A stretch of 38,825 nt of DNA. Origin: Spirochaetales bacterium. GTDB taxonomy: Bacteria > Spirochaetota > Spirochaetia > Sphaerochaetales > Sphaerochaetaceae. Where the stretch lies: assembly GCA_012519115.1 (NCBI GenBank), contig JAAYQW010000004.1, forward strand, positions 1 through 38,825, read 5' to 3'. The notes below the pieces were generated by a model that was not told where the DNA came from, searched no databases, and worked only from the letters and a program-made list of their open reading frames with translations. The translations under genes and the position numbers were made by a program. Positions 5,762-19,225 of this stretch are shown here, in pieces (the stretch's first letter is position 1; each line of letters opens with the position of its first letter).

Positions 5762-6630
5762 TTAGAAAGAATGAAACGTCGAGAGCGTGTTCGCCAAGGT
5801 TTCAGGGTTCGCATTCTCCAGGAGCGCGGGAACGGAAATCTTCCGAGTCCTCAAGTCGGCAAGCAGCGCCGGCCAGTCGAAGACGCCTTCAAGAGCGGGG
5901 AGGTTTCCTGTTTTGAAGCCGTTTTCATTGAGGACGAAATCTTTGACGTGAAGGGCCGCGACCCGAGAACCGAACGCATCGATGGCGTGGTCGGTAAAGG
6001 CGCGCTGAGCTTCAAGCGAAGGCTTGGGACGGTAAGAACCGTCAGCTTCGGGAATCCCGATCCATGGAATCAGGTTGACGGGATCGTAGATGATCTTCAG
6101 ATGGGGGTGTCAAAACGTTCGGAAAGACGGGCCATTCGTTCAATCGTGCAAATCGTATTCTGTTTGGCGACCGCCTCTACCGCCACGACCGACCCGACTT
6201 TGGCCGCATACTCGACCAAGCGGTCCAAGGAGGTGTACAGAGTCTCAAGATTCTCGGGTTCGGCGGTGTCGGGATGGTAAGAACAATCGGGACGAATCGA
6301 TCCGGTTTCCGTTCCGACCATCAACGCTCCGAGGATCGGAGCGACCTTGAGGTGCTCTTCAAAACGCTTGAGCTGGCGTTTCCGCTCGGCGATGTCAGGA
6401 TGGATCGGATTGATATAGCAGCCGAGAACCGCTATGGAAACACCCCGGGCATCAAATGCTTCCTTGATCCGAAGAGCGAACTCTTCGTTGAGGGGGCCGG
6501 AGGAAGGAAAGGATTTGGCGACGGCAAGCTGTACCGGCAGGTGTTCACCAAATGTCCGAACGGCGGCAGCGAGCGCCTCGGGGGTTGTAAAGGAACCCAG
6601 ATCGTGGGCGCGAACTCCAAATCTCATCAT
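5762..6630 (-). pseudogene. Sugar phosphate isomerase/epimerase-like TIM barrel, frameshifted
   Basis: Reading on the minus strand from the ATG at 6630, the first frame encodes a xylose-isomerase-like TIM barrel and stops early at 6097. The rest of the domain continues without a break in another frame down to the TAA at 5762. Adding one base to the run of five G at 6103-6107 restores a single 289-residue protein. Across the junction the metal-site pattern is complete: E in VVAVEAV, D in IIYDPVNLIPW, H in LHVKDF, and E in PALLENANP. The family (COG1082) isomerises or epimerises sugars or inositols. Start codon choice between 6630 and 6627 is open. The break may be a real mutation, programmed slippage or a base-call error in the homopolymer. 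It is divergent from the GH28 gene. Confidence 0.75.
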
Positions 6631-6636
6631 ACGGGA

Positions 6637-6665
6637 AGTATAAAAGGATTTGGAAAGGGAGTAAA
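6637..6665 (-). promoter_or_regulatory. Promoter of the isomerase gene
   Basis: On the minus strand TTTACT (6665-6660) is followed by 17 nt and TATACT (6642-6637). The ATG at 6630 is 6 nt downstream with no ribosome binding site, a leaderless arrangement. The short divergent gap (6631-6676) also serves GH28. Confidence 0.45.
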
Positions 6666-6676
6666 GGAAGGAGAAG

Positions 6677-8029
6677 ATGGCGACGATACGAGCAACGATG
6701 TTGGTTGATGGGGGAGTATTTGACAACACCGAGCACTTTCAACATTTCTTTCATAGTCTGGGTGAAGGTGATGAATTGATCATTCCTCCCGGTATCTATG
6801 CCACCGGAGCGCTGACGCTCGAAAAGCACTACGTGACCATTACGCTGGAGAAGGGATGCCGGATTCAATTCATCCCTGAACCTGAACTCTATCCGCCCGT
6901 GTATACCCGATGGGAAGGGGTGAACTGCTGGGCGATGCAACCCGCTTTTCTGATCGCCGACAGCACCCATATCCACCTTCGGGGTGAAGGGGTCCTCGAC
7001 GGAGGCGGGTCGTGGTGGTGGGAGCAGGCGGCGATAAAGAAAAAGCAGCCCAAGCCGATTACCGATCTTGAACACTCCTTTGCACGTCTGAACCCCGGTT
7101 TTGAGGAGCAGGCAAGCGGCGGAGGCGGTCGTAAAAGCCGGTTTCTTCGTCCGCCTCTGCTTCAGATCTATCAGAGCAGAAACGTTTATGTCTCAGGAAT
7201 CACCCTGCAAAACTCCCCGTTTTGGACGCTTCATCCCCTCTACAGCAAACGGTTGACGATTAAAGACATCACGATCATCAATCCGAAAGACGCTCCAAAT
7301 ACCGACGGAATCGATATTGATTCATGCAACGATGTCGTAGTGAGAAACTGCTTCGTCGATGTGGGTGATGACGGCATCGCGATCAAGAGCGGCAGCGGGA
7401 GCGACGGTGTCGCCACTGCCCGTCCGACCGTCGGTGTCGTGATTGAAGGATGTACCGTGCAAAATGCCCATGGCGGTGCGGTGATCGGCAGCGAAACCGC
7501 CGCCGGGGTACGGGATGTTTTTGTCCAACGGTGTCTCTTCGACGGAACCGATCGGGGGATACGAATCAAAACGCGCCGTGGTCGAGGTGGTGAAATCACC
7601 AATGTCCACTTCCGTTCCCTCACGATGAAAGACAATCTCTGCCCTGTTGCGGTGAATATGTATTACCGCCCGGGAAGCAACGATCCCGGCCTCTTCAGTT
7701 TGGACCCGCAGCCGATTCTGGATACCACTCCTTCCATTTCCAACATCCTGATCGAGGAATGCACGGCAGTGGGTGCCACCTCAAGCGCCGGGTTCATCGT
7801 CGGGCTTCCGGAAGAACCGATTCGCAATGTTCGAATCGCTCATTCCTCCTTCAGCGTATCACAGGAGAACGTCACGGCGATCGAGGAGAGTGAGATGTAT
7901 GAGGGACTTCCCGCCATCAGTAAACGGGGAATTCGCCTGAGAAACGTCCACCTCCACCTCGAGGATGTCGAGGTCCTCGGAGTGGAGGTGGGATTCGTTA
8001 TTGAAGACGGGGTTATGTTTACTTCTTAG
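6677..8029 (+). CDS. GH28 polygalacturonase, probably cytoplasmic
   Basis: The 450-residue protein is a glycoside hydrolase family 28 right-handed beta-helix enzyme that hydrolyses alpha-1,4 bonds between galacturonate units. Catalytic and binding residues are clear: NTDG at 208-211 (D210), GDDG at 230-233 (D231, D232), H265 in AHGGAVIGSE, and R296-I-K298. There is no signal peptide: the N-terminus MATIRATMLVDGG is not hydrophobic, so it probably acts on imported oligogalacturonides, likely as an exo-enzyme (inference). A purine-rich ribosome binding site (GGAAGGAG) precedes the ATG. It is divergent from the isomerase gene and overlaps kdgA tail to tail by 4 nt. Its neighbours, kdgA, kdgK, uxaA and uxaC, carry on the same pathway. 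Confidence 0.93.
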   Translation: MATIRATMLVDGGVFDNTEHFQHFFHSLGEGDELIIPPGIYATGALTLEKHYVTITLEKGCRIQFIPEPELYPPVYTRWEGVNCWAMQPAFLIADSTHIHLRGEGVLDGGGSWWWEQAAIKKKQPKPITDLEHSFARLNPGFEEQASGGGGRKSRFLRPPLLQIYQSRNVYVSGITLQNSPFWTLHPLYSKRLTIKDITIINPKDAPNTDGIDIDSCNDVVVRNCFVDVGDDGIAIKSGSGSDGVATARPTVGVVIEGCTVQNAHGGAVIGSETAAGVRDVFVQRCLFDGTDRGIRIKTRRGRGGEITNVHFRSLTMKDNLCPVAVNMYYRPGSNDPGLFSLDPQPILDTTPSISNILIEECTAVGATSSAGFIVGLPEEPIRNVRIAHSSFSVSQENVTAIEESEMYEGLPAISKRGIRLRNVHLHLEDVEVLGVEVGFVIEDGVMFTS

Positions 8030-8988
8030 CCTTTTACCAAGTGGAACGCGAAGCCTGCGATCTCTTCGTTGAAGTAGCAGCTCTTCATCGCTCCGCTCTG
8101 ATCCCGCTTCACGGACTCTTCATTGAGGGTGAAGCCTTTCATTTGAAGGTAGTAAGCGGTTCGATCGACGCTGTAGCACGCAAAGCCGAGATGCCCGTGT
8201 TTTCCGTAGAACGGGGTATGGGTCACTTCGATGGCGGCATCGAGGAACGTCGAGGAGTTTCCGACCTTTCTGGTCATTCCCAACAGTTCGAGCGCCGCGG
8301 CGACGGTTTGAGCGTTCTCTTTGCTCGTTTCATTGATTCCTAGATGGGCGAAACGAAGACCCTGAAGGGCAAGCACCGCTTCGGCGCAAAGAGCGGTGAT
8401 CTCGTCCCACTGCTCGTTTTCGATCAAATCGCTTTTGACCATCCAAGATCCGCCGACGGCCAGGACATTGGAGAGAGCGGCGTATGAACCGAGGTTTTTG
8501 GCATTGATTCCGCCGGTGGGCATGAACATTACATTGGGGAAAGGCCCGGCAAAGTTTTTGAGCATATCGACTCCACCGCTCGCTTCGGCGGGGAAGAACT
8601 TGAGGACGGAAAGACCGCGGCTCAAGCCCGCTTCGATATCGCTCGGGGTGCAGACCCCCGGAACGATCGGGATGTTGTTTGCAAGCGCCCAATCGACGAC
8701 CTCGGGATTGAAGCCGGGGGAAACGATGAATTTGCCTCCGGCCTTGACCGCCTTCTTTGCAAACTCGACGCTGGTTACCGTCCCGGCTCCGAGGAGCATC
8801 TCGGGCACCGCTTTGGCTATATTGGAAATCGCCTCTTCCGCCGCGGCGGTTCTGAAGGTGACTTCCGCAACGGGCAGACCGCCGGAGATCATCGCTTTGG
8901 CAAGGGGTACCGCCTTGGCGGCGTCATCTATTTTAACGACGGGAACCAGACCGAGAAGCTGGATTTTTTTCATCAGAGCATCAGACAT
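8026..8988 (-). CDS. kdgA: KDPG/KHG aldolase fused to a C-terminal VOC-like domain
   Basis: Residues 1-210 form a 2-dehydro-3-deoxyphosphogluconate aldolase, which splits KDPG to pyruvate and glyceraldehyde-3-phosphate, the last step of uronate breakdown. The catalytic E42 (in AEVTFRT) and the Schiff-base K130 (in VLKFFPAEASGG) are present. Residues 212-320 are an extra domain that begins FAHLGIN and contains GHLGFACYSV; it resembles a single vicinal-oxygen-chelate (glyoxalase-like) module. Standard KDPG aldolases are only about 205-215 residues. The ATG at 8988 has a strong AAGGAGG site 8 nt upstream. It is divergent from kdgK across a 104-bp region that holds a likely IclR operator. Confidence 0.93.
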   Translation of the reverse strand: MSDALMKKIQLLGLVPVVKIDDAAKAVPLAKAMISGGLPVAEVTFRTAAAEEAISNIAKAVPEMLLGAGTVTSVEFAKKAVKAGGKFIVSPGFNPEVVDWALANNIPIVPGVCTPSDIEAGLSRGLSVLKFFPAEASGGVDMLKNFAGPFPNVMFMPTGGINAKNLGSYAALSNVLAVGGSWMVKSDLIENEQWDEITALCAEAVLALQGLRFAHLGINETSKENAQTVAAALELLGMTRKVGNSSTFLDAAIEVTHTPFYGKHGHLGFACYSVDRTAYYLQMKGFTLNEESVKRDQSGAMKSCYFNEEIAGFAFHLVKG

Positions 8989-9010: not shown

Positions 9011-9025
9011 TGAAACAGTGTTTCA
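9011..9025. promoter_or_regulatory. Palindromic operator, probable site of the IclR/KdgR-like regulator (copy 1)
   Basis: TGAAACA-G-TGTTTCA is a perfect inverted repeat with 7-bp arms, placed between divergent kdgA and kdgK and ending 7 nt before the kdgK -35 box. The same arms occur at 17726-17740. The arms resemble the GAAA...TTTC core reported for proteobacterial KdgR sites; assignment to the IclR regulator at 13032-13802 is inference. Confidence 0.7.
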
Positions 9026-9092: not shown

Positions 9093-10130
9093 TTGAGTAA
9101 AAAATTTGTAACATTTGGTGAAATCATGCTTCGCCTTAAAAGTCCGGGTCATGAACGATTTTTCCAGAGTCCCGCTCTGGAGGCTACATTCGGCGGGGGA
9201 GAGGCGAACGTCGCCGTTTCGCTCTCCTTGCTCGGTAAAAACGCCCAGTTCGTAACCGCTCTGCCGAAGAATGCGATCGGGGAAGCGGCAGTAAGAGAGG
9301 TTCGGAGCTTTGGGGTGGATACTTCAGCGATTCTTAGAACCGACGAAGGGCGAGTAGGAATCTATTTCCTCGAGACCGGGGCGAACCAGCGACCGAGCCT
9401 CGTTGTCTATGACCGCGCCGAAAGCTCGATCGCCACCGCGAAGCCGAGCGATTTCGATTTTGTCAAGATCCTCAAAGGTGCGGCGTGGCTTCACGTTACG
9501 GGAATCACTCCGGCAATCAGCGCGGAAGCGGCGGCATCGACCTTGGCGGCTCTGAAAGAGGCGAAGAAGCAGGGAGTGACGGTATCGATCGATCTCAACT
9601 ATCGCAGGAAGCTGTGGAAGTGGGGCAAAACCGCCGTGGAAGTGATGCGCGAGCTGACGACCTATGCGGATGTGATCATCGCCAATGAAGAGGACATCCA
9701 GAAGTGCCTGGGAATCGAAGCGAACGTCGATGTCACTTCCGGCGAATTGGATACCAACGTCTATAAAACGCTCACCGAAGAGGTGAAAAAGCAGTTCCCG
9801 AATATCAGCGTCATCGGTGTGACCTTGCGTGAAAGCCGCAGTGCGGATGTGAACGGCTGGAGCGCCGCTCTCAACGGAAAGACCGGATTCTATCTTTCCC
9901 GTTCCTATGAGATCACCGACATCGTCGATCGGGTCGGTGGAGGAGACTCCTTCTCGGCAGGCTTGATTTACGCCTTGAGCGAGTACGGAGATGATGAGGA
10001 GTATGTGATCAACTTCGCGGTCGCCGCGTCCGCTCTGAAACACTCGATCAGCGGCGACTTCAACCTGACCACCTTGAACGAGGTGAAGGCGCTCGTCAAA
10101 GGGGACGGATCGGGTCGGGTTCAGCGCTGA
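9093..10130 (+). CDS. kdgK: 2-keto-3-deoxygluconate kinase, PfkB family
   Basis: KdgK phosphorylates 2-keto-3-deoxygluconate (KDG) to KDPG, the substrate of the divergent kdgA product. The 345-residue protein has the PfkB/ribokinase layout: N-terminal [16 protein letters not shown], the substrate region [28 protein letters not shown] and the C-terminal anion-hole/catalytic motif [17 protein letters not shown] with the base Asp. The start is a TTG at 9093, supported by AAGGAGGG 6 nt upstream and by the family N-terminus. The promoter is TTGACA-17-TATAGT, with a palindromic operator just upstream of it. Its 3' end overlaps the convergent acyltransferase gene by 35 nt. Confidence 0.95.
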
Positions 10131-11488: not shown

Positions 11489-12571
11489 ATGGATAGAAAC
11501 CTTCTTGCGGAATTATATGCTCTTGCGAAAGCGACGTTCAGCGTCAACCTTGACGGCCTCTTCTTTGAAGAGGATCTGTTCGCGGTTTCACTGGCGAATC
11601 GAAAGACCTACTATGTAACTCTCGGCGACGGAGTGGTGGTGGCGAATCGCGGCAAGCAGGGACTTACAAATTTTCTCGAGTTCCTCGAACATGAAGATAC
11701 CGAGGATGAGTTGGAGTTCTTCGAATATCAGCAAGCGATGGATTCGCTTTACAGCGTTGTTCCCCTCGAGGGGGAAGACGATGTGTTTGAAACCGATGAA
11801 GCGTGGCTGGAGGAAAGCGGTGTCGCCTTTGAAGAGACGGCGGCTCCCGTATTCCGAAGCAAGAAGGAGTATTGTCTTCCCGGGATCATCGACGAAGAAG
11901 AGGCGAAAGAGTTTATCCAGATCTTCCGGGCGATTCTTCACCTCATCAACCGACTGTTGGAGATTAGGAAACAACATCCGAAAAACCGGGCGATCGCGGT
12001 CTGGCATGATCAGGTTTCCGGCGGTTCGAAGAAAGATGAATATATTCCCTTCCTGACGGTCAGGGGAGATGAAGTGATTCTTGATAAGATTCTGTTTGAA
12101 GCGTGGAATTATGAAAACACGTTCCCGGTATCGGACTTCGCCGATGCCGAACAGCGACGCTACTACAAATCGATGAAAGCCAAAAGCGGGAAGATTTTTT
12201 ACATGGCGACGGGAATCTTTCCCGCTCCCGTATCCAGCGAGAAGTTTGATGAGCCGACGTTCCCGGTTTTCTATCTTCTCTACGATCCCCAGACCCATCA
12301 GATCCTCGATGTATATATGCTTGACGAGTTCGAGAAAGATTACGACGTATTCGTCGATCGCTTTCTTGCGATAGTGGACCGTGGAGTGAAGCCTCAAGCG
12401 ATCCACTGCTACGGTCGCCGGACGTTGCCGCTGCTCACCAAGATCGGGCCCAATATGGGAGTGATGGTCTTCGAAGGGAAACGGGACGCGGAGCTCGATG
12501 AGGTGATTGACGAAATGCTCCATCACTTCCTCCACAGTGGAATTGAAAAGGATGATGAGCACGATCACTAG
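11489..12571 (+). CDS. Acidic cytoplasmic protein of unknown function
   Basis: I do not recognise this 360-residue protein with confidence. It has no signal peptide or membrane segment and is acidic, with an Asp/Glu-rich stretch around residues 68-115 and a His/Asp-rich tail (KDDEHDH). Two parts can be guessed: an N-terminal alpha/beta region to about residue 165 (MDRNLLAELYALAKA...), and a C-terminal region from about 240 (FYLLYDPQTHQILD, then HCYGRRTLPLLTKIG and MVFEGKRDAELDE). The layout recalls uncharacterised proteins pairing a DUF7309-like and a DUF6930-like region, but that is from memory and weak. The gene stands alone, with its own TTGACA promoter 6 nt from the ATG. It converges on the oxidoreductase remnant 14 nt away. 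Confidence 0.8.
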   Translation: MDRNLLAELYALAKATFSVNLDGLFFEEDLFAVSLANRKTYYVTLGDGVVVANRGKQGLTNFLEFLEHEDTEDELEFFEYQQAMDSLYSVVPLEGEDDVFETDEAWLEESGVAFEETAAPVFRSKKEYCLPGIIDEEEAKEFIQIFRAILHLINRLLEIRKQHPKNRAIAVWHDQVSGGSKKDEYIPFLTVRGDEVILDKILFEAWNYENTFPVSDFADAEQRRYYKSMKAKSGKIFYMATGIFPAPVSSEKFDEPTFPVFYLLYDPQTHQILDVYMLDEFEKDYDVFVDRFLAIVDRGVKPQAIHCYGRRTLPLLTKIGPNMGVMVFEGKRDAELDEVIDEMLHHFLHSGIEKDDEHDH

Positions 12572-12585
12572 ATCGTATTGGCAAT

Positions 12586-12966
12586 TCAATCGGTTCGCAA
12601 GGCCGACTCGCCCGTCGAAGGGCAGGTGCCGATGCCCAAGAACTCATCAACCACCGTTTGAATAAGCGGTTGGGCGACATGAGCCGGCGGAGAATCTCCT
12701 GCGATGGATTCGACGCCCTGTTTCGTTCGGGTCACGATCGGTTGCGTAAGACCGAGGACCGAGTAGATGAGATCTCCCTTTTCGCAGTGAATCGTCGTCC
12801 GGTCGTCATCGATGTATGTGTTGAAGACGAACATTCCGCTCCGGTTCGCTCCCATTCCTTGAGCCTCAACGATCGGTCCGAGGAGGAAGTCGATCAGATC
12901 GAGAGCGTGCGAGCCGATATCGGGGAAACGCCCGCATCCGATGATTCCCCAACGTATCGTATTCAT
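12586..12966 (-). pseudogene. Gfo/Idh/MocA oxidoreductase remnant with large internal in-frame deletion
   Basis: The 126-residue frame starts like a Gfo/Idh/MocA dehydrogenase (MNTIRWGIIGCG, the first strand and half of the nucleotide-binding loop). It then jumps directly to a segment that normally lies near residue 180, GRFPDIGSHALDLIDFLLG, and continues to STGESALRTD, where it stops just short of the usual C-terminus. Most of the Rossmann fold and the catalytic EKP motif, about 170 residues, are missing, so the product cannot bind NAD(P) normally. The clean in-frame junction at a Gly-rich GCG/GRF point suggests deletion between short similar sequences. It lies downstream of the iclR gene on the same strand and was probably the last gene of the uronate operon. 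Confidence 0.8.
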
Positions 12967-13031: not shown

Positions 13032-13802
13032 TCACCCGCCCGTGTACCCCATGAGCCTCGAAATGCGGGCGGTCGCTTCCTGGATCGCCTGACCCATTCG
13101 TTCGGTCTGCTCGGAGTCGAAGCGGAAAAGCGGCCAGGAGACGCTCATCGCCGCGATCACCTTTCCGCTATGATCGCGAATCGGAGAGCCGATGCACAGC
13201 GTTCCCATCTCGTGCTCTTCGTTGTCCATCGCCCGACCCAGGATACGGACCTCTTCAAGTTCTCCGAGAAGCGCTTCTTTGCTGGTGAGGGTGTTGGGAG
13301 TGAACGCTTTGAGCTTGACCCGTTCGAGGTAGGAGGCGATCTCTTCATCCTCCATATCCGCCAGGAGAACTTTCCCGATCGCGGTGCAGTAGAGCGGAAT
13401 GGTTTTTCCCACCCGGCTGTACATCCGGATCGTATAAGAGGATTCCTTCTTCAGAACATACACCGCGCTGTCCTCTTCGAGGACTCCCATGTGAACCGTC
13501 TCGCCCAGCTCTTCGCTCAGGTGCTGGGCGATGGGCCTCGCGAGGTTGATCAGATCCAAGTGCTCCAAGCCCCGTGAACCCACGCTGAACATCTTCAGCG
13601 TCAGACTGTAGAGGTCGTGCGGGTCGCGATAGACATAGCCAAGGTTCACCAATGTCGAAAGAAAGCGCAGAAGCGTCGCCTTCGGGAGCTTCGTCTCCTT
13701 GGAAAGGCTTTCGAGATTGATCGACTGGTAGCGCGAAAGCGTCTCCAAGATCATGATCGTTCGAATTACTCCGCTGGTTCCCGGTTGTTCACTCATCATC
13801 AT
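13032..13802 (-). CDS. IclR-family transcriptional regulator, KdgR-like
   Basis: The 256-residue protein has an N-terminal winged helix-turn-helix (residues about 12-70, including ESLSKETKLPKATLLRFLSTL) and a C-terminal IclR effector domain (about 80-250, with TVHMGVLEED, YCTAIGKVLLA and the IGSPIRDHSGKVIAAMSVSWP segment). IclR members such as KdgR often repress uronate catabolism and respond to KDG. It is the fourth gene of the transporter-uxaA-uxaC operon; its ATG at 13802 overlaps the uxaC stop, with two further in-frame ATGs following. The two 15-bp palindromes at 9011 and 17726 are its likely operators, which would make it autoregulated (inference). The effector is not visible in the sequence. 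Confidence 0.9.
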   Translation of the reverse strand: MMMSEQPGTSGVIRTIMILETLSRYQSINLESLSKETKLPKATLLRFLSTLVNLGYVYRDPHDLYSLTLKMFSVGSRGLEHLDLINLARPIAQHLSEELGETVHMGVLEEDSAVYVLKKESSYTIRMYSRVGKTIPLYCTAIGKVLLADMEDEEIASYLERVKLKAFTPNTLTSKEALLGELEEVRILGRAMDNEEHEMGTLCIGSPIRDHSGKVIAAMSVSWPLFRFDSEQTERMGQAIQEATARISRLMGYTGG

Positions 13803-15202
13803 CCCTCAAAATACGTTTTGGCGTTATTGAACGAGATATCACTGACGATCTTGCCGACTATATCGATATCGTCGGGAATTTCACCATCTTCCATCCATGT
13901 CCCGAAGATATTGGCAAGAATCCTTCTGAAGTACTCGTGCCGGGAGTAGGAGAGGAAGGAGCGGCTATCGGTCAGCATTCCGACGAAGCGTGAGAGAAGG
14001 CCGACGTTTCCCAAGATCTTCATCTGCTCCTCCATCCCGTCTTTGTGGTCGGCGAACCACCACGCCGAACCAAGCTGCATCTTTCCGGGTCGGCCGTCTT
14101 GGTAGCAACCCATCAGCGTGGCAAGGGAGTAGTAGTCCTTGGGATTGAGCGTGTAGAGAATGGTCTTGGGAACCTCACCGCTTTTGGAAAGGTTGTTCAG
14201 GAACGCCGAAAGCCCTTCGGCCAGCTCCTTGTCATGGGAAGCATCGTAGCCGGTATCCGGTCCGAGCCTATCGAACATCATGCTGTTGTTGTTCCGAATC
14301 GCCGCGAAGTGCAGCTGCATCGCGACATCCCGCTTCTTGTATGCTTTGGCGAGGCGGGTGAGCACATAGGTCTTATACGCTTCGACCTCTTCCTTGGAAA
14401 GGTTCCCGCCTTTCAGACGTTTGGCAAAGACCTTTGCGACGTTTTCTTCACTCCGGAAAAGGGATGGTGTCGTGACTAGGGCGTGGTCGCTGGCTCGACA
14501 CCCCATCTCGACGAAGAAGTCGAGCCGCTTGATCAGCGCGGTGATGAGATCGTCAAGATTGGTAATCGTCATGCTCGCAGAAGCGGCAAGCGTGCTCAGA
14601 TACTCCGGGAACGCGGGATTATCAATGGCGAGCGCTTTGTCGGGACGGTAGGAAGGCATGACGCGGGTCGGAAAATCTTTTTGGCCGGCGATCTCCTTGT
14701 GGCATGCCAGATCATCTGCCGGATCATCCGTCGTCCCGAGGGCGTACACTTTGAACTGCTTGAGGATTCCCTTGACTGAAAGGTTGGGGTTGGTTTGAAG
14801 CTGGCGGTTCGTTTCATCGTAAATCGCTTTCGCGCTCTTTTCGTTGAATACTTCATCGATCCGGAAGTAACGCTTCAGCTCCAGATGGGTCCAGTGATAG
14901 AGCGGGTTGCCCATCAGTTTTTCAATCGTTCTCGCCCAAGCGAGGAACTTGTCATACGGGTCGGCATTCTTTCCCGTTATGAGATCCTCGGAAATGCCGT
15001 TGGCCCGCATCATTCGCCACTTGTAGTGGTCTCCGCCCAGCCACATGTCGGTAATCGTGGTGAAGCGTTTGTTTGTCGCCAGCTCACTTGGTATCAGATG
15101 ACAATGATAATCGTAAATCGGCTGATTCTTCGCAAACTCATGGTAGAGCCGCTCGGAACTCTTGTTTTGCAAGAGGAAATCATCTCCCATAAACCGTTTC
15201 AT
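13799..15202 (-). CDS. uxaC: Uronate isomerase
   Basis: UxaC converts galacturonate to tagaturonate, and glucuronate to fructuronate, the first cytoplasmic step of the isomerase pathway. The 467 residues match the family length. The N-terminal metal motif YDYHCHLIPSELA, the MWLGGDHYKWRMMRANG block, the HWTHLELKRYF block and the C-terminal DSRSFLSYSRHEYFRRIL are all typical. The ATG at 15202 has AAAAAGGAG upstream. It lies 24 nt after uxaA and its stop overlaps the iclR start by 4 nt, so it is in the middle of a coupled operon. Confidence 0.97.
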   Translation of the reverse strand: MKRFMGDDFLLQNKSSERLYHEFAKNQPIYDYHCHLIPSELATNKRFTTITDMWLGGDHYKWRMMRANGISEDLITGKNADPYDKFLAWARTIEKLMGNPLYHWTHLELKRYFRIDEVFNEKSAKAIYDETNRQLQTNPNLSVKGILKQFKVYALGTTDDPADDLACHKEIAGQKDFPTRVMPSYRPDKALAIDNPAFPEYLSTLAASASMTITNLDDLITALIKRLDFFVEMGCRASDHALVTTPSLFRSEENVAKVFAKRLKGGNLSKEEVEAYKTYVLTRLAKAYKKRDVAMQLHFAAIRNNNSMMFDRLGPDTGYDASHDKELAEGLSAFLNNLSKSGEVPKTILYTLNPKDYYSLATLMGCYQDGRPGKMQLGSAWWFADHKDGMEEQMKILGNVGLLSRFVGMLTDSRSFLSYSRHEYFRRILANIFGTWMEDGEIPDDIDIVGKIVSDISFNNAKTYFEG

Positions 15203-15226: not shown

Positions 15227-16759
15227 TTACAGAACCACCCCATCTTTAAAGATTGAAATCTCACGGTATCCGTGTTCTTCATTTCTCGCCAGTTTCTTGC
15301 CGCTGGCGATCTCTCTCATCATATCAATAAAATCGTCAACTACAACCTTTTGCTCTTCCCTAAGCAATCGTTCGGCGTCAAAATCGATCCAATGGGGCTT
15401 TTTTTCCGCCAAAGCCGTGTTGGAAGCAAGCTTCACCGTTGGAACGGGGGATCCGAGGGGAGTCCCTCGACCGGTGGTGAAAAGGATGATGTGCGCCCCG
15501 GCCGCCGTAAGGGCGGTGGTGGAGACGATATCGTTCCCCGGTCCCGAAAGAAGGGTCAGTCCCCGCTCATTTGCTCGGCCTCCGTAGGGGATGACGTCTG
15601 TGATGATCGCCGTTCCCCCTTTTTGAATACACCCGAGGCTCTTGTCCTCAAGCGTCGTGATTCCGCCTTCCTTGTTTCCGGGCGAGGGGTTTTCATACAC
15701 GACCTGATCGTGTTTGACGAAATATCGTTTGAAGTCGTCGATCAGCGCAGCGATCTTTTCATATACCGCCTCATCGTTCGCCCGGTTCATCAACAGCTGC
15801 TCCGCACCGAACATCTCCGGAACTTCGGTGAGGATTCCGCTGCCGCCCATCGCGGTCAGTTCATCACAGAAATACCCGACCAAGGGGTTTGCGGTGATGC
15901 CGGAGTATCCATCGGATCCTCCGCATTTGAATCCGACGACAAGTCGGTCCGTTCCTACGGTCGTCCGGGTATCGTTCTGCATTTCATCATACAGCTCCCG
16001 GATGAGCGCATACGAGGTTTCAAGCTCATCCTCCACCGCTTGGGAAGTGAGGAACTTCACTCGCTTGGAATCAACCGCTCCGACGAGCTCCCTGAAGGAC
16101 TCGGGGGTGTTGTTTTCACAGCCGAGGGAGAGGATGAGGACCCCACCGGCGTTGGGATGATGGACCAGGTCCGCCAGAATGGTCCGGGTCGCTTCATGGT
16201 CATCCCCAAGCTGGGAGCAACCGAAGGGATGGGTCCACGCGTAGGTCCCCTCGTAGTGCTCGTTTTTCGGAAGGTTCTTCTCCGCCCACTTGGCGATGCG
16301 CTCCGCGGTCATGTTCACGCACCCCACCGTGGGAACGATCCAGATCTCATTGCGGATTCCGATCTTCCCGTTCAACCGCTCGAACGCCTCGATCGTCGGA
16401 ATGGAGTCTTCCCATCGCTTCGCCCGCCGATCCGCTTCCCGTCGGAATGCATCACGGACCTTTCGATCGTAGTGATATTCGGCGCGTTCACGCAACAGCG
16501 TTGAGGTGTTATGGGTGTGCACGTGCTCGCCGACACCGATATCTTTTGCTGCAACGCCCATCGGAGCCCCATATTTGATGATTGGCTGCCCTTTCCTGAT
16601 CGCAGTCAAGGCGATCTTGTGTCCTCCATCGATATCCTCGACCAAGGTCGTGACGAATGATCCGATGATGATCGTTTCGCCCTTTTTGAGGGAGCGGACC
16701 GCTACCGCGACGGTGTCTTCGGGACGGATTCGGATCGCTTTCACATCAACCCCTTTCAT
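15227..16759 (-). CDS. uxaA: Altronate dehydratase
   Basis: UxaA dehydrates altronate to 2-keto-3-deoxygluconate, the substrate of KdgK. The 510-residue protein carries both expected parts: an N-terminal SAF domain (about 1-100, with IIKYGAPMGVA and VGEHVHTHNT) and the C-terminal catalytic domain (from about 120, with IVPTVGCVNMTA, THPFGCSQLGDDH, LGCENNTPE, VGFKCGGSDGYSGITANPLVG). The conserved cysteines of the iron-dependent family are present. Its ATG at 16759 overlaps the stop of the transporter gene by 4 nt, which shows translational coupling. The preceding enzyme of the pathway, tagaturonate reductase, is not in the window. Confidence 0.97.
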   Translation of the reverse strand: MKGVDVKAIRIRPEDTVAVAVRSLKKGETIIIGSFVTTLVEDIDGGHKIALTAIRKGQPIIKYGAPMGVAAKDIGVGEHVHTHNTSTLLRERAEYHYDRKVRDAFRREADRRAKRWEDSIPTIEAFERLNGKIGIRNEIWIVPTVGCVNMTAERIAKWAEKNLPKNEHYEGTYAWTHPFGCSQLGDDHEATRTILADLVHHPNAGGVLILSLGCENNTPESFRELVGAVDSKRVKFLTSQAVEDELETSYALIRELYDEMQNDTRTTVGTDRLVVGFKCGGSDGYSGITANPLVGYFCDELTAMGGSGILTEVPEMFGAEQLLMNRANDEAVYEKIAALIDDFKRYFVKHDQVVYENPSPGNKEGGITTLEDKSLGCIQKGGTAIITDVIPYGGRANERGLTLLSGPGNDIVSTTALTAAGAHIILFTTGRGTPLGSPVPTVKLASNTALAEKKPHWIDFDAERLLREEQKVVVDDFIDMMREIASGKKLARNEEHGYREISIFKDGVVL

Positions 16760-17733
16760 TTGAGGTGCTCCTTGCGTTTCGGTCCATAGAGCACTGAGGC
16801 CATGATCGCACAGATCGATTGTTGAGTAATGATTCCAAAAATGATCGGAAGAGCCGTCATCGGAGGGAAGTAATTGATCGCGAGCACCATGGAAGCGCTG
16901 ATATTCCGCATCGAAGCGGCGAACGTCAGGCTTTTACTTTCTTCAAGGGGGAGACGGGCAAGCTTTCCGAGAGCGTGTGATGCAGGAAATCCCAGTAACG
17001 CCAAGGTGGCGGCAAGCAGGGCGATCGGGATGTAGGCAAGCGTCGCCTTCTTTAGAAGCGTCGGAGCGATTTGGGAAATATTGATCGTCACGATCGCGAA
17101 TAAAGCGATCTTCGTGAACAGCTTCAGGGAAGGAGTAATTTTCTTCGTTCTCTTGTCCCCTACGGTATGGTTGACGAGCATTCCCACCAAGGAGGGAAGA
17201 ACGATCATCATCAACAGACTTATGATCATCGCCCTGGTGTCGATCGAAACGGTTTTTTGGGCGAAAATCTTTACGGTGAGCGGAGTGAGGATCGGTCCCA
17301 GCAATGTCGAGACGAGAATCAGCACCAAAGAGAGGGGCTCATCGCCGTGGTAGATTCCCGACCAGACATATCCGACCATCGCAGTGGGAATCGACGTCAG
17401 AAGGACGAAGCCGGTTACGAGGTTCGGGTCGGTGAAGAGAAGGCTCGCTAGTGTGAATGAAAGCAGCGGCATGATGACGCTCGCCCACAGCAAAAAGAGC
17501 GCGATCGGTTTTATCTTGGTAAGCGCACCGAAAAATCGTTTCGGGCTGATCGCCAATGCGCTGGAAAACGTGATGAAGGCGAACAGCGCGTTCACGATCG
17601 GTTTCAGCGGAGCAAATACCCGGTAGAAGAGCAGACCGGCAACCACGCCCCCGATCGGGATGAGGGGCATGATTCGTTCAAGTGCACTATTCAAAGAGAT
17701 GAGCCGAGCCTCTATGGTTTGGAAATGAAACAT
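16756..17733 (-). CDS. BASS/BART-superfamily transporter, candidate uronate importer
   Basis: This is a 325-residue membrane protein with about nine hydrophobic segments, of the bile acid:sodium symporter (BASS) type. Family features include the TSIPTAMVGYVWSGI region and the FAASMRNISASMVLAINYFPP helix. BASS belongs to the same superfamily as the KDG permease KdgT. As first gene of a uxaA-uxaC-iclR operon it probably imports galacturonate or a related uronate (inference). The start is uncertain: ATG 17733 sits 8 nt after the -10 box and fits the leaderless pattern seen elsewhere in the window; TTG at 17694 and ATG at 17670 are alternatives. The operator overlaps the ATG at 17733. Confidence 0.85.
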   Translation of the reverse strand: MFHFQTIEARLISLNSALERIMPLIPIGGVVAGLLFYRVFAPLKPIVNALFAFITFSSALAISPKRFFGALTKIKPIALFLLWASVIMPLLSFTLASLLFTDPNLVTGFVLLTSIPTAMVGYVWSGIYHGDEPLSLVLILVSTLLGPILTPLTVKIFAQKTVSIDTRAMIISLLMMIVLPSLVGMLVNHTVGDKRTKKITPSLKLFTKIALFAIVTINISQIAPTLLKKATLAYIPIALLAATLALLGFPASHALGKLARLPLEESKSLTFAASMRNISASMVLAINYFPPMTALPIIFGIITQQSICAIMASVLYGPKRKEHLK

Positions 17734-17740
17734 TGTTTCA
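17726..17740. promoter_or_regulatory. Palindromic operator, probable IclR/KdgR-like site (copy 2)
   Basis: TGAAACA-T-TGTTTCA has the same 7-bp arms as the site at 9011-9025 and differs only in the central base. It starts 2 nt after the minus-strand -10 box and covers the expected transcription start, a classic repressor position. It also lies in the divergent region shared with the ORF at 17808. Confidence 0.75.
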
Positions 17741-17741
17741 G

Positions 17742-17770
17742 AGCATATAAGTGCTGCCAAATACTGTCAA
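17742..17770 (-). promoter_or_regulatory. Promoter of the transporter-uxaA-uxaC-iclR operon
   Basis: On the minus strand consensus TTGACA (17770-17765) is followed by 17 nt and TATGCT (17747-17742). The predicted start, near 17735, lies inside the palindromic operator. Confidence 0.7.
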
Positions 17771-17807
17771 GATGCAAGTTGGCTATGGTATAGTCGATCA
17801 CGAGAAG

Positions 17808-18071
17808 ATGAAAAAAATCGCCCTTGTTCTTGCCTCGATTCATACCGGAACCTCCGTCACGTTGTGGAAAGAGATCGCCTATCAGGAGAACCGGGAGTAT
17901 CTGCGAAATGAGACCTATACACGGGTCAATCCCGATAATGTTGGTTTGGGCAAGTGTACGTCAAATCAGGCAAACCGGAACGCTTGGCTTGAAGAGTTCA
18001 AAAAGCTCGGCGGACAAGCATGGAATGATGCCGGAGTGGCATTCATGAAAGAAAACAATCTCTTGAACTAG
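17808..18071 (+). CDS. Small ORF of unknown function, possible remnant
   Basis: This is an 87-residue frame, MKKIALVLASIHTG at the start and FMKENNLLN at the end. The first 20 residues resemble the opening strand of a periplasmic-binding-protein/LacI-type sensor domain; the remainder (TRVNPDNVGLGKCTSNQANRNAW...) does not continue that fold and reads like the C-terminal end of a different protein. It could be a small genuine protein or a fusion left by an internal deletion. A TATAGT at 17789-17794 precedes the ATG by 13 nt, with TGTCAA 18 nt further up. A GTG at 17751 would extend the frame but lies within promoter sequence. A strong hairpin follows 12 nt after the stop, before the GH105 gene. 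Confidence 0.4.
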   Translation: MKKIALVLASIHTGTSVTLWKEIAYQENREYLRNETYTRVNPDNVGLGKCTSNQANRNAWLEEFKKLGGQAWNDAGVAFMKENNLLN

Positions 18072-18130: not shown

Positions 18131-19225
18131 ATGACGAAGAACTACTCCTTGGAAATGGCTAGAAGTGTCATCAATCGATATCAACCGGCTCAGATGCGCT
18201 GGCATTATGAGCATGGATTGGCGATTACCGCAATCTTGGAGGTGGGTGAATACTATCAACGAACATCCTTCTTTGATTGGGCGTATTCGATGTATGACCC
18301 GTTCATCAAGGAGGATGGAACGATCAAGAACTATCGAGCGGGCGAGAACAACCTTGATATGATCAATCCCGGACGGAATCTCTTTTTCTTGCACGAGAAA
18401 ACCGGAGAACAGCGATTCATCAAAGCTGCTCACGTCCTTCGCGGACAGCTGATCAACCAGCCGAGGACCCGTAGCGGAATCTACTGGCACAAGCAGATCT
18501 ATCCGTGGCAAGTATGGCTGGACGGAGTCTATATGCAAGGACCGTTCTCCGCCCTCTACGCGAAGCATGTCGATCAACGGAGCATCATCGAGGATCTTGT
18601 CGCCCAGATTGAAGGGGTGTATGCAACGCTTCGGGATTCCGGAACCGGGTTGCTCTACCATGCATGGGACGAGTCGCGGAGAATGCGCTGGTCCGACATC
18701 GAAACGGGGCTTTCTCCCCATTTCTGGGGAAGGGCGCTCGGGTGGTATGCGATGGCGGTCGTTGACATCATCGCGATCATATCAACCGATAATCCGCTTT
18801 CCGATCCGCTGAAGAAGATCCTCAATACGCTGATGGGCGATATCCTGGCATTCCAACAACCCGACGGGATGTTCTGCCAGGTTGTCGACCGAGGTGAAGC
18901 GGAAGGAAACTACAAAGAAACTTCAGCAAGCGCAATGTTCGCCTATACGCTTCTGAGGATGGTGAGCTTGGGAATCAATAATGATTCCAAGATTCAAGCA
19001 TGCGCTCTTAAAGCACTGGACGGGATCGAAAAGCGCTATTTGAGCGTTGATGAAGATGGGGAGTATCATCTTGGAGACATTTGCAGCGTGGCGGGGCTCG
19101 GGGGAAACCCCTATCGTGACGGTTCTCTTCACTACTGCTTCAAAGAACCGCAATTCGTCGATGACTTCAAGGGTGTAGGCCCCTACATCCTTGCAGCCTT
19201 GGAGCGCGAAAAGCTTTCGAAGTGA
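18131..19225 (+). CDS. GH105 unsaturated rhamnogalacturonyl hydrolase, cytoplasmic
   Basis: GH105 enzymes remove the unsaturated galacturonyl residue from the non-reducing end of pectin lyase products. The 364-residue protein has the family (alpha/alpha)6-barrel marks: MRWHYEHGLAITAILEVG near residue 22, KQIYPWQVWLDGVYMQGPF at 121-139 with the likely catalytic D131, and LYHAWDESRRMRWSDIETG followed by SPHFWGRALGWYAMA. There is no signal peptide, so it works on imported oligosaccharides. No good ribosome binding site precedes the ATG; the hairpin at 18084-18112 is just upstream. It is oriented away from the transporter-uxaA operon and may share the palindromic operator region. Confidence 0.9.
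   Translation: MTKNYSLEMARSVINRYQPAQMRWHYEHGLAITAILEVGEYYQRTSFFDWAYSMYDPFIKEDGTIKNYRAGENNLDMINPGRNLFFLHEKTGEQRFIKAAHVLRGQLINQPRTRSGIYWHKQIYPWQVWLDGVYMQGPFSALYAKHVDQRSIIEDLVAQIEGVYATLRDSGTGLLYHAWDESRRMRWSDIETGLSPHFWGRALGWYAMAVVDIIAIISTDNPLSDPLKKILNTLMGDILAFQQPDGMFCQVVDRGEAEGNYKETSASAMFAYTLLRMVSLGINNDSKIQACALKALDGIEKRYLSVDEDGEYHLGDICSVAGLGGNPYRDGSLHYCFKEPQFVDDFKGVGPYILAALEREKLSK

Follow-up and report, generated by a model that had tools for sequence, protein, structure and literature searches.

A BASS-family permease without most sodium-binding residues in a galacturonate operon, a candidate sugar-acid importer of a Sphaerochaeta-like spirochaete

Genes and features of the locus

The DNA stretch analysed here (the window, 38,825 nucleotides) represents contig C2 of a Spirochaetales genome (G000) which comprises 1.70 Mb in 117 contigs and is 82.9% complete. 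It carries an operon in the order BASS-uxaA-uxaC-iclR, with BASS as the first gene, and the following features:

6677..8029, plus strand: hydrolase of the GH28 (polygalacturonase) family, by Pfam.
8026..8988, minus strand: eda, KDPG/KHG aldolase of 320 residues, 8-200 of which are covered by the Pfam match.
9011..9025, no strand: the other perfect KdgR-type palindrome, in the eda-kdgK intergenic region.
9093..10130, plus strand: kdgK, PfkB-family sugar kinase, KDG-kinase-like; no NCBIfam model above cut-off.
11489-12571: DUF7309/DUF6930 protein, whose relatives remain near the uxa locus in many same-genus genomes.
12586..12966, minus strand: Gfo/Idh-family gene, a probable remnant (126 residues versus 367 in L038; Pfam 26 bits, cut-off 27).
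13032..13802, minus strand: iclR, IclR-family regulator, KdgR-like (IclR_C 197.3 bits; KdgR equivalog 232.6 bits, below its cut-off of 275).
13799..15202, minus strand: uxaC, hexuronate isomerase (PF02614, 657.5 bits).
15227..16759, minus strand: uxaA, altronate/galactarate dehydratase family (GD_AH_C, 315.2 bits).
16756..17733, minus strand: BASS/SBF-family permease of 325 residues, from a clade without canonical Na+-site residues and a candidate hexuronate carrier (profiles, alignment, tree).
17726..17740, no strand: KdgR-type palindrome TGAAACANTGTTTCA, 15 bp, 0 mismatches, covering the BASS start codon.
17742..17770, minus strand: sigma70-like promoter match TTGACA-17-TATGCT (10 of 12, a consensus match only), ending 8 nt before the ATG.
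17751..18071, plus strand: deletion scar in which the opening part of a LacI/AraC hybrid regulator gene runs into the closing part of an ABC binding-protein gene (by comparison with L036).
18131..19225, plus strand: Glyco_hydro_88 (GH88/GH105-type) hydrolase, by Pfam.

The BASS reading frame is intact, starts with the ATG at 17733 and contains no internal stop among its 325 codons. Its product matches PF01758 (SBF) with 85.9 bits (cut-off 24.3, E 3.7e-24), which places it in the family, and PF13593 (SBF_like) with 68.9 bits; these two were the only Pfam models found at E ≤ 0.001, with no KdgT, MFS, TRAP or DctM model among them. The BASS stop codon TGA (16758-16756) and the uxaA start codon ATG (16759-16757) form an ATGA overlap that can be read directly at 16756-16759. 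The original prediction of a BASS-like permease which heads the uxaA-uxaC-iclR operon, is coupled by ATGA to uxaA and stands outside the KdgT, TRAP and ExuT types was borne out in each of these respects. A further candidate BASS gene in the same genome was rejected; the PF01758 match on contig C110 (30.8 bits) is partial, contains one stop and falls in a permease that looks auxin-efflux-like by eye.

As the galactarate dehydratase equivalog scores UxaA with 255.1 bits, below its cut-off of 730.85, the name altronate dehydratase follows from family and context. The GH28, eda, kdgK and Glyco_hydro_88 genes close to the BASS operon characterize the window as a pectin and uronate locus. Eda extends for about 120 C-terminal residues past its Pfam match, and its relatives align over a similar length. 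The -10 box of the promoter match ends eight bases before the ATG, so the message of the BASS operon may be leaderless; since a scan of the region gave 7 such matches versus 4.1 expected, the match by itself proves little. A TTGACA at a similar distance recurs in many linked relatives.

Linkage to uxa genes and a KdgR-type operator

A single-protein scan of genome contigs gave three loci, with Sphaerochaeta and Spirochaetales MAGs as named relatives (52% protein identity). BASS matches are present in 56 of 139 genomes of the order at E ≤ 1e-20 and in 115 of 392 genomes sampled from the phylum at E ≤ 1e-10. The order search yielded 72 places, 61 of which (window included) were read with their flanks, G098 via the short contig L004 only; ten places were left out, namely second copies in G109, G115, G114, G108, G092, G113, G082 and G116 and two G102 fragments. 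From the phylum search, 20 further places were read (13 clade members outside the order, G461 and six canonical loci), the remaining low-scoring places being left out. The resulting clade set, sampled almost wholly within Spirochaetota, contains 75 rows including L142; L004, which duplicates G098, and L131, which is linked as well but truncated by the end of its contig, were dropped.

The survey of homologue neighbourhoods for uxa genes, envisaged by the original prediction as the point at which rare linkage would speak against it, did not refute it: in all 40 rows of at least 240 bits, window included, uxaA, uxaB or uxaC lies on the same strand as BASS, the nearest within 283 bases. The uxa genes are downstream of BASS in the layouts viewed, and most relatives read show the order BASS-uxaB-uxaA-uxaC-iclR, from which uxaB is missing in the window. 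Over the whole clade, 46 of 75 rows are linked and 29 unlinked. Seven linked rows score below 240 bits, and six of them (L122-L125, L129, L133) come from two other families of the class; L123 and L124 have the uxa genes on the opposite strand, and L133 has another gene between BASS and uxaC. None of the six canonical Spirochaetota BASS loci is linked to uxa genes. The linked label requires 8 changes on the tree versus 27.6 in shuffles, for rows that share ancestry.

Scanning of viral contigs gave no BASS match, and plasmids gave six matches with 26.5-27.5% identity, two of which were read and found to be canonical. Three matches were obtained in phage records; the one read (L142) has clade-type residues in a short, unverified record. 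There the BASS gene (6019-6978) lies beside nrdD/nrdG-like genes, and the DNA is probably bacterial rather than phage.

The BASS start codon is embedded in TGAAACAATGTTTCA (17726-17740), and this 15-bp palindrome, found in a spirochaete, matches the core of the KdgR consensus of Dickeya dadantii, AAATGAAACAnTGTTTCATTT (PMC5559549). The pattern TGRAACAN1-2TGTTYCA is one of two IclR-family motif types described in PMC8222616, whose gammaproteobacterial KdgR consensus differs at two inner positions. The BASS promoter thus carries a KdgR-type operator with 0 mismatches. The window contains five matches to the pattern at up to 3 mismatches (1.5 expected), including two perfect ones; in the whole G000 assembly, at up to 1 mismatch, the pattern occurs at the BASS start and at eda/kdgK only, and the reversed-pattern control gave 0 matches. 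Perfect matches were found in 22 of the 139 genomes of the order (26 sites), versus a control match in one genome. Among the 23 perfect sites read, seven belong to eda/kdgK and three to BASS, and each of these two groups includes one from the window; three sites each are situated by a PfkB-type kinase (39-42% identical to kdgK), by a short-chain dehydrogenase and by pyruvate phosphate dikinase, one is situated by a TRAP binding protein, and three have no assignment; one or two genes of each kind were checked with Pfam and the rest by eye. The dikinase sites are found in L218, L222 and L223 of genus g11 (Pfam-checked in L218).

A site with up to 3 mismatches precedes kdgK in 14 of 19 loci. Near the BASS start, from 200 bases before to 60 bases after the aligned start position, an operator is present in 40 of the 46 linked rows at up to 3 mismatches (28 at up to 2, four perfect), versus 0.9% in single-base shuffles of these regions; at up to 3 mismatches it was detected in none of the 29 unlinked clade rows and none of six canonical rows. 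The conservation of the palindrome in linked rows is, however, raised by the fact that half of it is coding sequence (Met-Phe-His). Because the uxa linkage is recurrent and the operator is common to eda/kdgK, BASS can very probably be counted among the members of the KDG/uronate regulon, an assignment which we regard as well supported and hold with high confidence. The IclR-family protein encoded at 13032..13802 is the presumed binder of the palindromes.

Membership in this regulon leaves several observations that count against an import of galacturonate. The uxaC gene was detected in 125 of the 139 genomes of the order, versus 56 for this BASS, and G000 contains TRAP transporters elsewhere in the genome. 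Twenty uxa loci devoid of BASS were fetched, of which L164 and L167 were dropped as the ORF filter gave no uxaC there; in the remaining 18, inspected by eye, no other carrier was seen in the BASS position. One of them, L174, comes from G061, a genome with an unlinked BASS. Six of the 18 (L156, L158, L160, L162, L166, L174) have the palindrome, at up to 2 mismatches, near the uxaB start instead. As uxaC is commoner than BASS and no replacement carrier was seen, the uxa pathway can evidently run without BASS. Unlinked BASS genes are accompanied by a uxaC elsewhere in G061 and G073; no uxaC was found in G048 and G068.

The operon of the window has also undergone gene loss. The uxaB gene of L038 matches the tagaturonate reductase model with 647 bits; the search for it gave no more than a 25%-identical protein in G000, nothing in G099 and an operon-borne fragment in G104, and G094 has a broken copy in the operon and a full, 50%-identical one elsewhere. 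As no good uxaB was found in them, G000 and G099 would need another reductase for galacturonate catabolism, which again counts against the galacturonate reading. A 535-residue Mannitol_dh protein of G000 (contig C110) might stand in for UxaB, although its scores are below every reductase cut-off (119.5 bits for tagaturonate reductase, cut-off 359; 133.5 bits for fructuronate reductase, cut-off 603); its gene adjoins one of the nickel-dependent hexonate epimerase type (NF052594, 631.9 bits), the pair spanning 4999-7976 of L175.

These losses bear on a second reading, according to which BASS takes up a pathway intermediate or relative from the medium, either KDG as an analogue of KdgT, tagaturonate or altronate. 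In its favour, KdgT is under KdgR control in enterobacteria, and BASS shares its operator with kdgK and eda. The poor record of uxaB in G000, G099 and G104 suits altronate, as does G054, which keeps BASS-uxaA-iclR only, with no uxaB-family or uxaC match, and thereby speaks against galacturonate. On the other hand, BASS resides beside the uxa genes, and kdgK is at least 6 kb away in the four loci showing both (window, L065, L069, L073). Moreover, L129 and L133, both from near-complete genomes, pair BASS with uxaC and give no match to PF20629 (uxaA family), and therefore fit a hexuronate better than altronate. We consider uptake of an intermediate possible, at a probability of roughly one in four.

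The scar upstream of BASS marks a further loss; about 6 kb separate its two ends in the relative L036. In L036 (6744-9797) and L038 (10708-13875), a regulator of more than 1000 residues with a LacI-type binding domain and an AraC DNA-binding domain (Pfam, L036 copy) is divergent from BASS. BASS, uxaA, uxaC and iclR are intact in the lineage of the window, and dN/dS values among G000, G099 and G104 are 0.17-0.24 for BASS, 0.12-0.13 for uxaA, 0.09-0.13 for uxaC and 0.06-0.09 for iclR. Thus, uxaB and the neighbouring ABC transporter were lost from the locus while BASS is under purifying selection. Since these genomes are 81-87% complete, absence of a gene from them is no proof, and the scar may be an assembly error.

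BASS might also be an exporter that relieves the build-up of a pathway acid, such as a keto-sugar acid, pyruvate or lactate. Export is known for PIN carriers of the same fold (PMC9477730). ABC transporter genes are situated beside BASS at the uxa locus in L036 and L038 and at a rhamnose locus in L077, which makes a second importer look redundant there. In the window, however, the neighbouring ABC genes are deleted and BASS is retained under selection, and the first place in a catabolic operon is commoner for importers. Export is therefore an unlikely reading.

Sodium-site residues of the clade

Residue numbers refer to ASBT_NM and were assigned via an alignment to 3zuy and an alignment of the 75 clade and eight canonical rows. 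We take Gln77, Ser128, Thr132, Glu260 and Gln264 to be Na+ ligands of ASBT_NM in addition to Ser114 and Asn115. PMC10645422 assigns the latter two to Na+ binding and Asn265 and Thr112 to contact with pantoate; it also states that all plant BASS carriers it discusses have conserved Na+ sites. In the window protein, Gln77, Ser114, Asn115, Thr132, Glu260 and Gln264 correspond to Ala84, Gly121, Tyr122, Ile139, Ala272 and Arg276, and Ser135 (Ser128) is the sole Na+-site residue kept, so that the two Na+ sites are not preserved. Glu260, Asn115, Thr132 and Gln77 are each found in none of the 75 clade rows, and the Gln264 position is occupied by Arg in 62, Lys in 12 and His in one. CaiT and ApcT, too, carry Arg or Lys in what was once a Na+ site. 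The substrate-contacting Asn265 (Asn277 in the window) is present in 75 of 75 rows, as is a Trp at the Met117 position; Lys208 (window number) is Lys in 74 and Arg in one, and Thr112 is replaced by a hydrophobic residue in 72. The canonical rows have Glu260, Gln264, Asn115, Ser114 and Ser128 in 8 of 8, and Gln77 and Thr132 in 6 of 8 each (His and Ser, respectively, in the other two). The 75 clade rows are split from canonical BASS with 100% SH-aLRT in a quick tree containing long branches, L135 and L142 among them.

With most Na+-site residues gone, the usual Na+ symport of BASS carriers becomes doubtful, and the residues suggest, with about even probability, that this BASS works without Na+. 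The partial retention of Ser128 (55 of 75 rows) and Ser114 (22 of 75) counts against such a loss. An AlphaFold model of four sequences (window, L003-L005) reached a pLDDT of 60 and a pTM of 0.55; Foldseek with this weak model returned ASBT structures as best matches (4n7x, TMq 0.56), the bacterial ASBT sharing 21-26% identity with the window protein in these alignments. As side chains cannot be positioned reliably in so weak a model, the residue argument is drawn from the sequence alignment.

The carrier could alternatively be an ordinary Na+-coupled BASS with another task, transporting pantoate or a keto acid, and merely be placed in the operon. The canonical bacterial carriers ASBT_NM, ASBT_Yf and PanS have the profile family and Asn265 in common with it, and the two NCBIfam models matching it are the general BASS subfamily (TIGR00841, 96.6 bits) and PanS (NF047939, 88 bits). 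Both scores are, however, far below the cut-offs of 326.3 and 400, the clade differs from these three carriers by the four residues absent throughout and by Arg, Lys or His for Gln264, and the uxa linkage and the operator recur over families. We consider an ordinary BASS very improbable.

Eight clade rows constitute one side of a 100% branch in the quick tree, a related group whose context was viewed in three. L077 carries a second copy of the type in an L-rhamnose operon of a Sphaerochaeta-like genome, together with RhaA (568.9 bits), a class II aldolase, an AraC regulator and a sugar-binding protein (Pfam). The contexts of L083 and L087 resemble it, BASS being located near 9.3-10.6 kb in all three. 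The accessible text of an L-rhamnose survey (PMC3870299) contains neither 'spiroch' nor 'symporter'. In L088, BASS is adjacent to a lactate-racemase-type gene, an HpcH aldolase and a 2-hydroxyacid dehydrogenase; in the contexts viewed of the remaining unlinked rows, no clear sugar link was seen. The rhamnose-linked rows also possess the Arg although rhamnose has no carboxylate, which counts against a pairing of Arg and carboxylate. Tentatively, and with less than even confidence, the whole clade might consist of carriers without Na+ coupling, in which Arg/Lys replaces the Na2 ion and which serve pectin sugars and sugar acids, i.e. galacturonate in uxa operons, L-rhamnose or a product of it in rhamnose operons and other acids elsewhere.

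Predicted substrate, transport mode and implications

Substrate, direction and coupling of BASS are all predicted from sequence. The original prediction of a uronate or KDG-type substrate holds insofar as a uronate-pathway substrate is likely, given the linkage in 40 of 40 top rows and the operator common to eda/kdgK; galacturonate itself is not singled out against KDG, tagaturonate and altronate, and 29 of 75 rows are unlinked, some of them in rhamnose or other operons. Its argument from a common superfamily of BASS and KdgT adds little. Import of D-galacturonate would be the most likely single reading, with a probability of about one half, and altronate, tagaturonate or KDG would be the next likeliest substrates.

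In our preferred scenario, a Sphaerochaeta-like, pectin-using cell would take up a hexuronate, most probably D-galacturonate, through the BASS-fold carrier and process it with UxaC, UxaA, KdgK and Eda. A KdgR-like IclR repressor would hold the BASS operon and eda/kdgK off via the palindromes until KDG or a similar product appears. The carboxylate might be held at the helix crossover by Asn277 and two conserved basic residues, Lys208 and the Arg276 that occupies the Na2 position, and transport would then be a uniport or otherwise not coupled to Na+, as in PIN auxin carriers. Taken as a whole, this combination of Na+-independent hexuronate import and KdgR-like control is the best explanation we can offer, and we give it an even chance of being correct.

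Among the known systems, ExuT and TRAP transporters serve uronate uptake, the same job as proposed for BASS; they belong to other families, and the window protein has no MFS or DctM match. KdgT, itself a KdgR-controlled uronate-pathway permease, shares with BASS the KdgR-type operator, whereas BASS has no KdgT match in Pfam. PIN-FORMED auxin carriers of the BART superfamily have the crossover elevator fold and transport a carboxylate without Na+ or obligatory proton coupling, PIN8 demonstrating that the fold is capable of it; in contrast to BASS, they have an inverted topology, show negligible sequence similarity and export their substrate (PMC9477730). Within the literature outside subscription papers, no BASS uronate carrier was found by title or beginning of abstract, nor any paper joining 'bile acid sodium symporter' and 'galacturonate'.

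The findings point to a KdgR-type uronate regulon in spirochaetes. If the proposed function is true, the uronate transporters known so far would be joined by a new family, a BASS clade outside all named subfamily models would gain a substrate class, and the clade would offer a natural experiment on the rewiring of a Na+-coupled carrier fold for work without Na+. With most Na+-binding residues gone and its gene in a galacturonate operon, this BASS protein is a promising candidate for a sugar-acid importer of a kind not recognised before.
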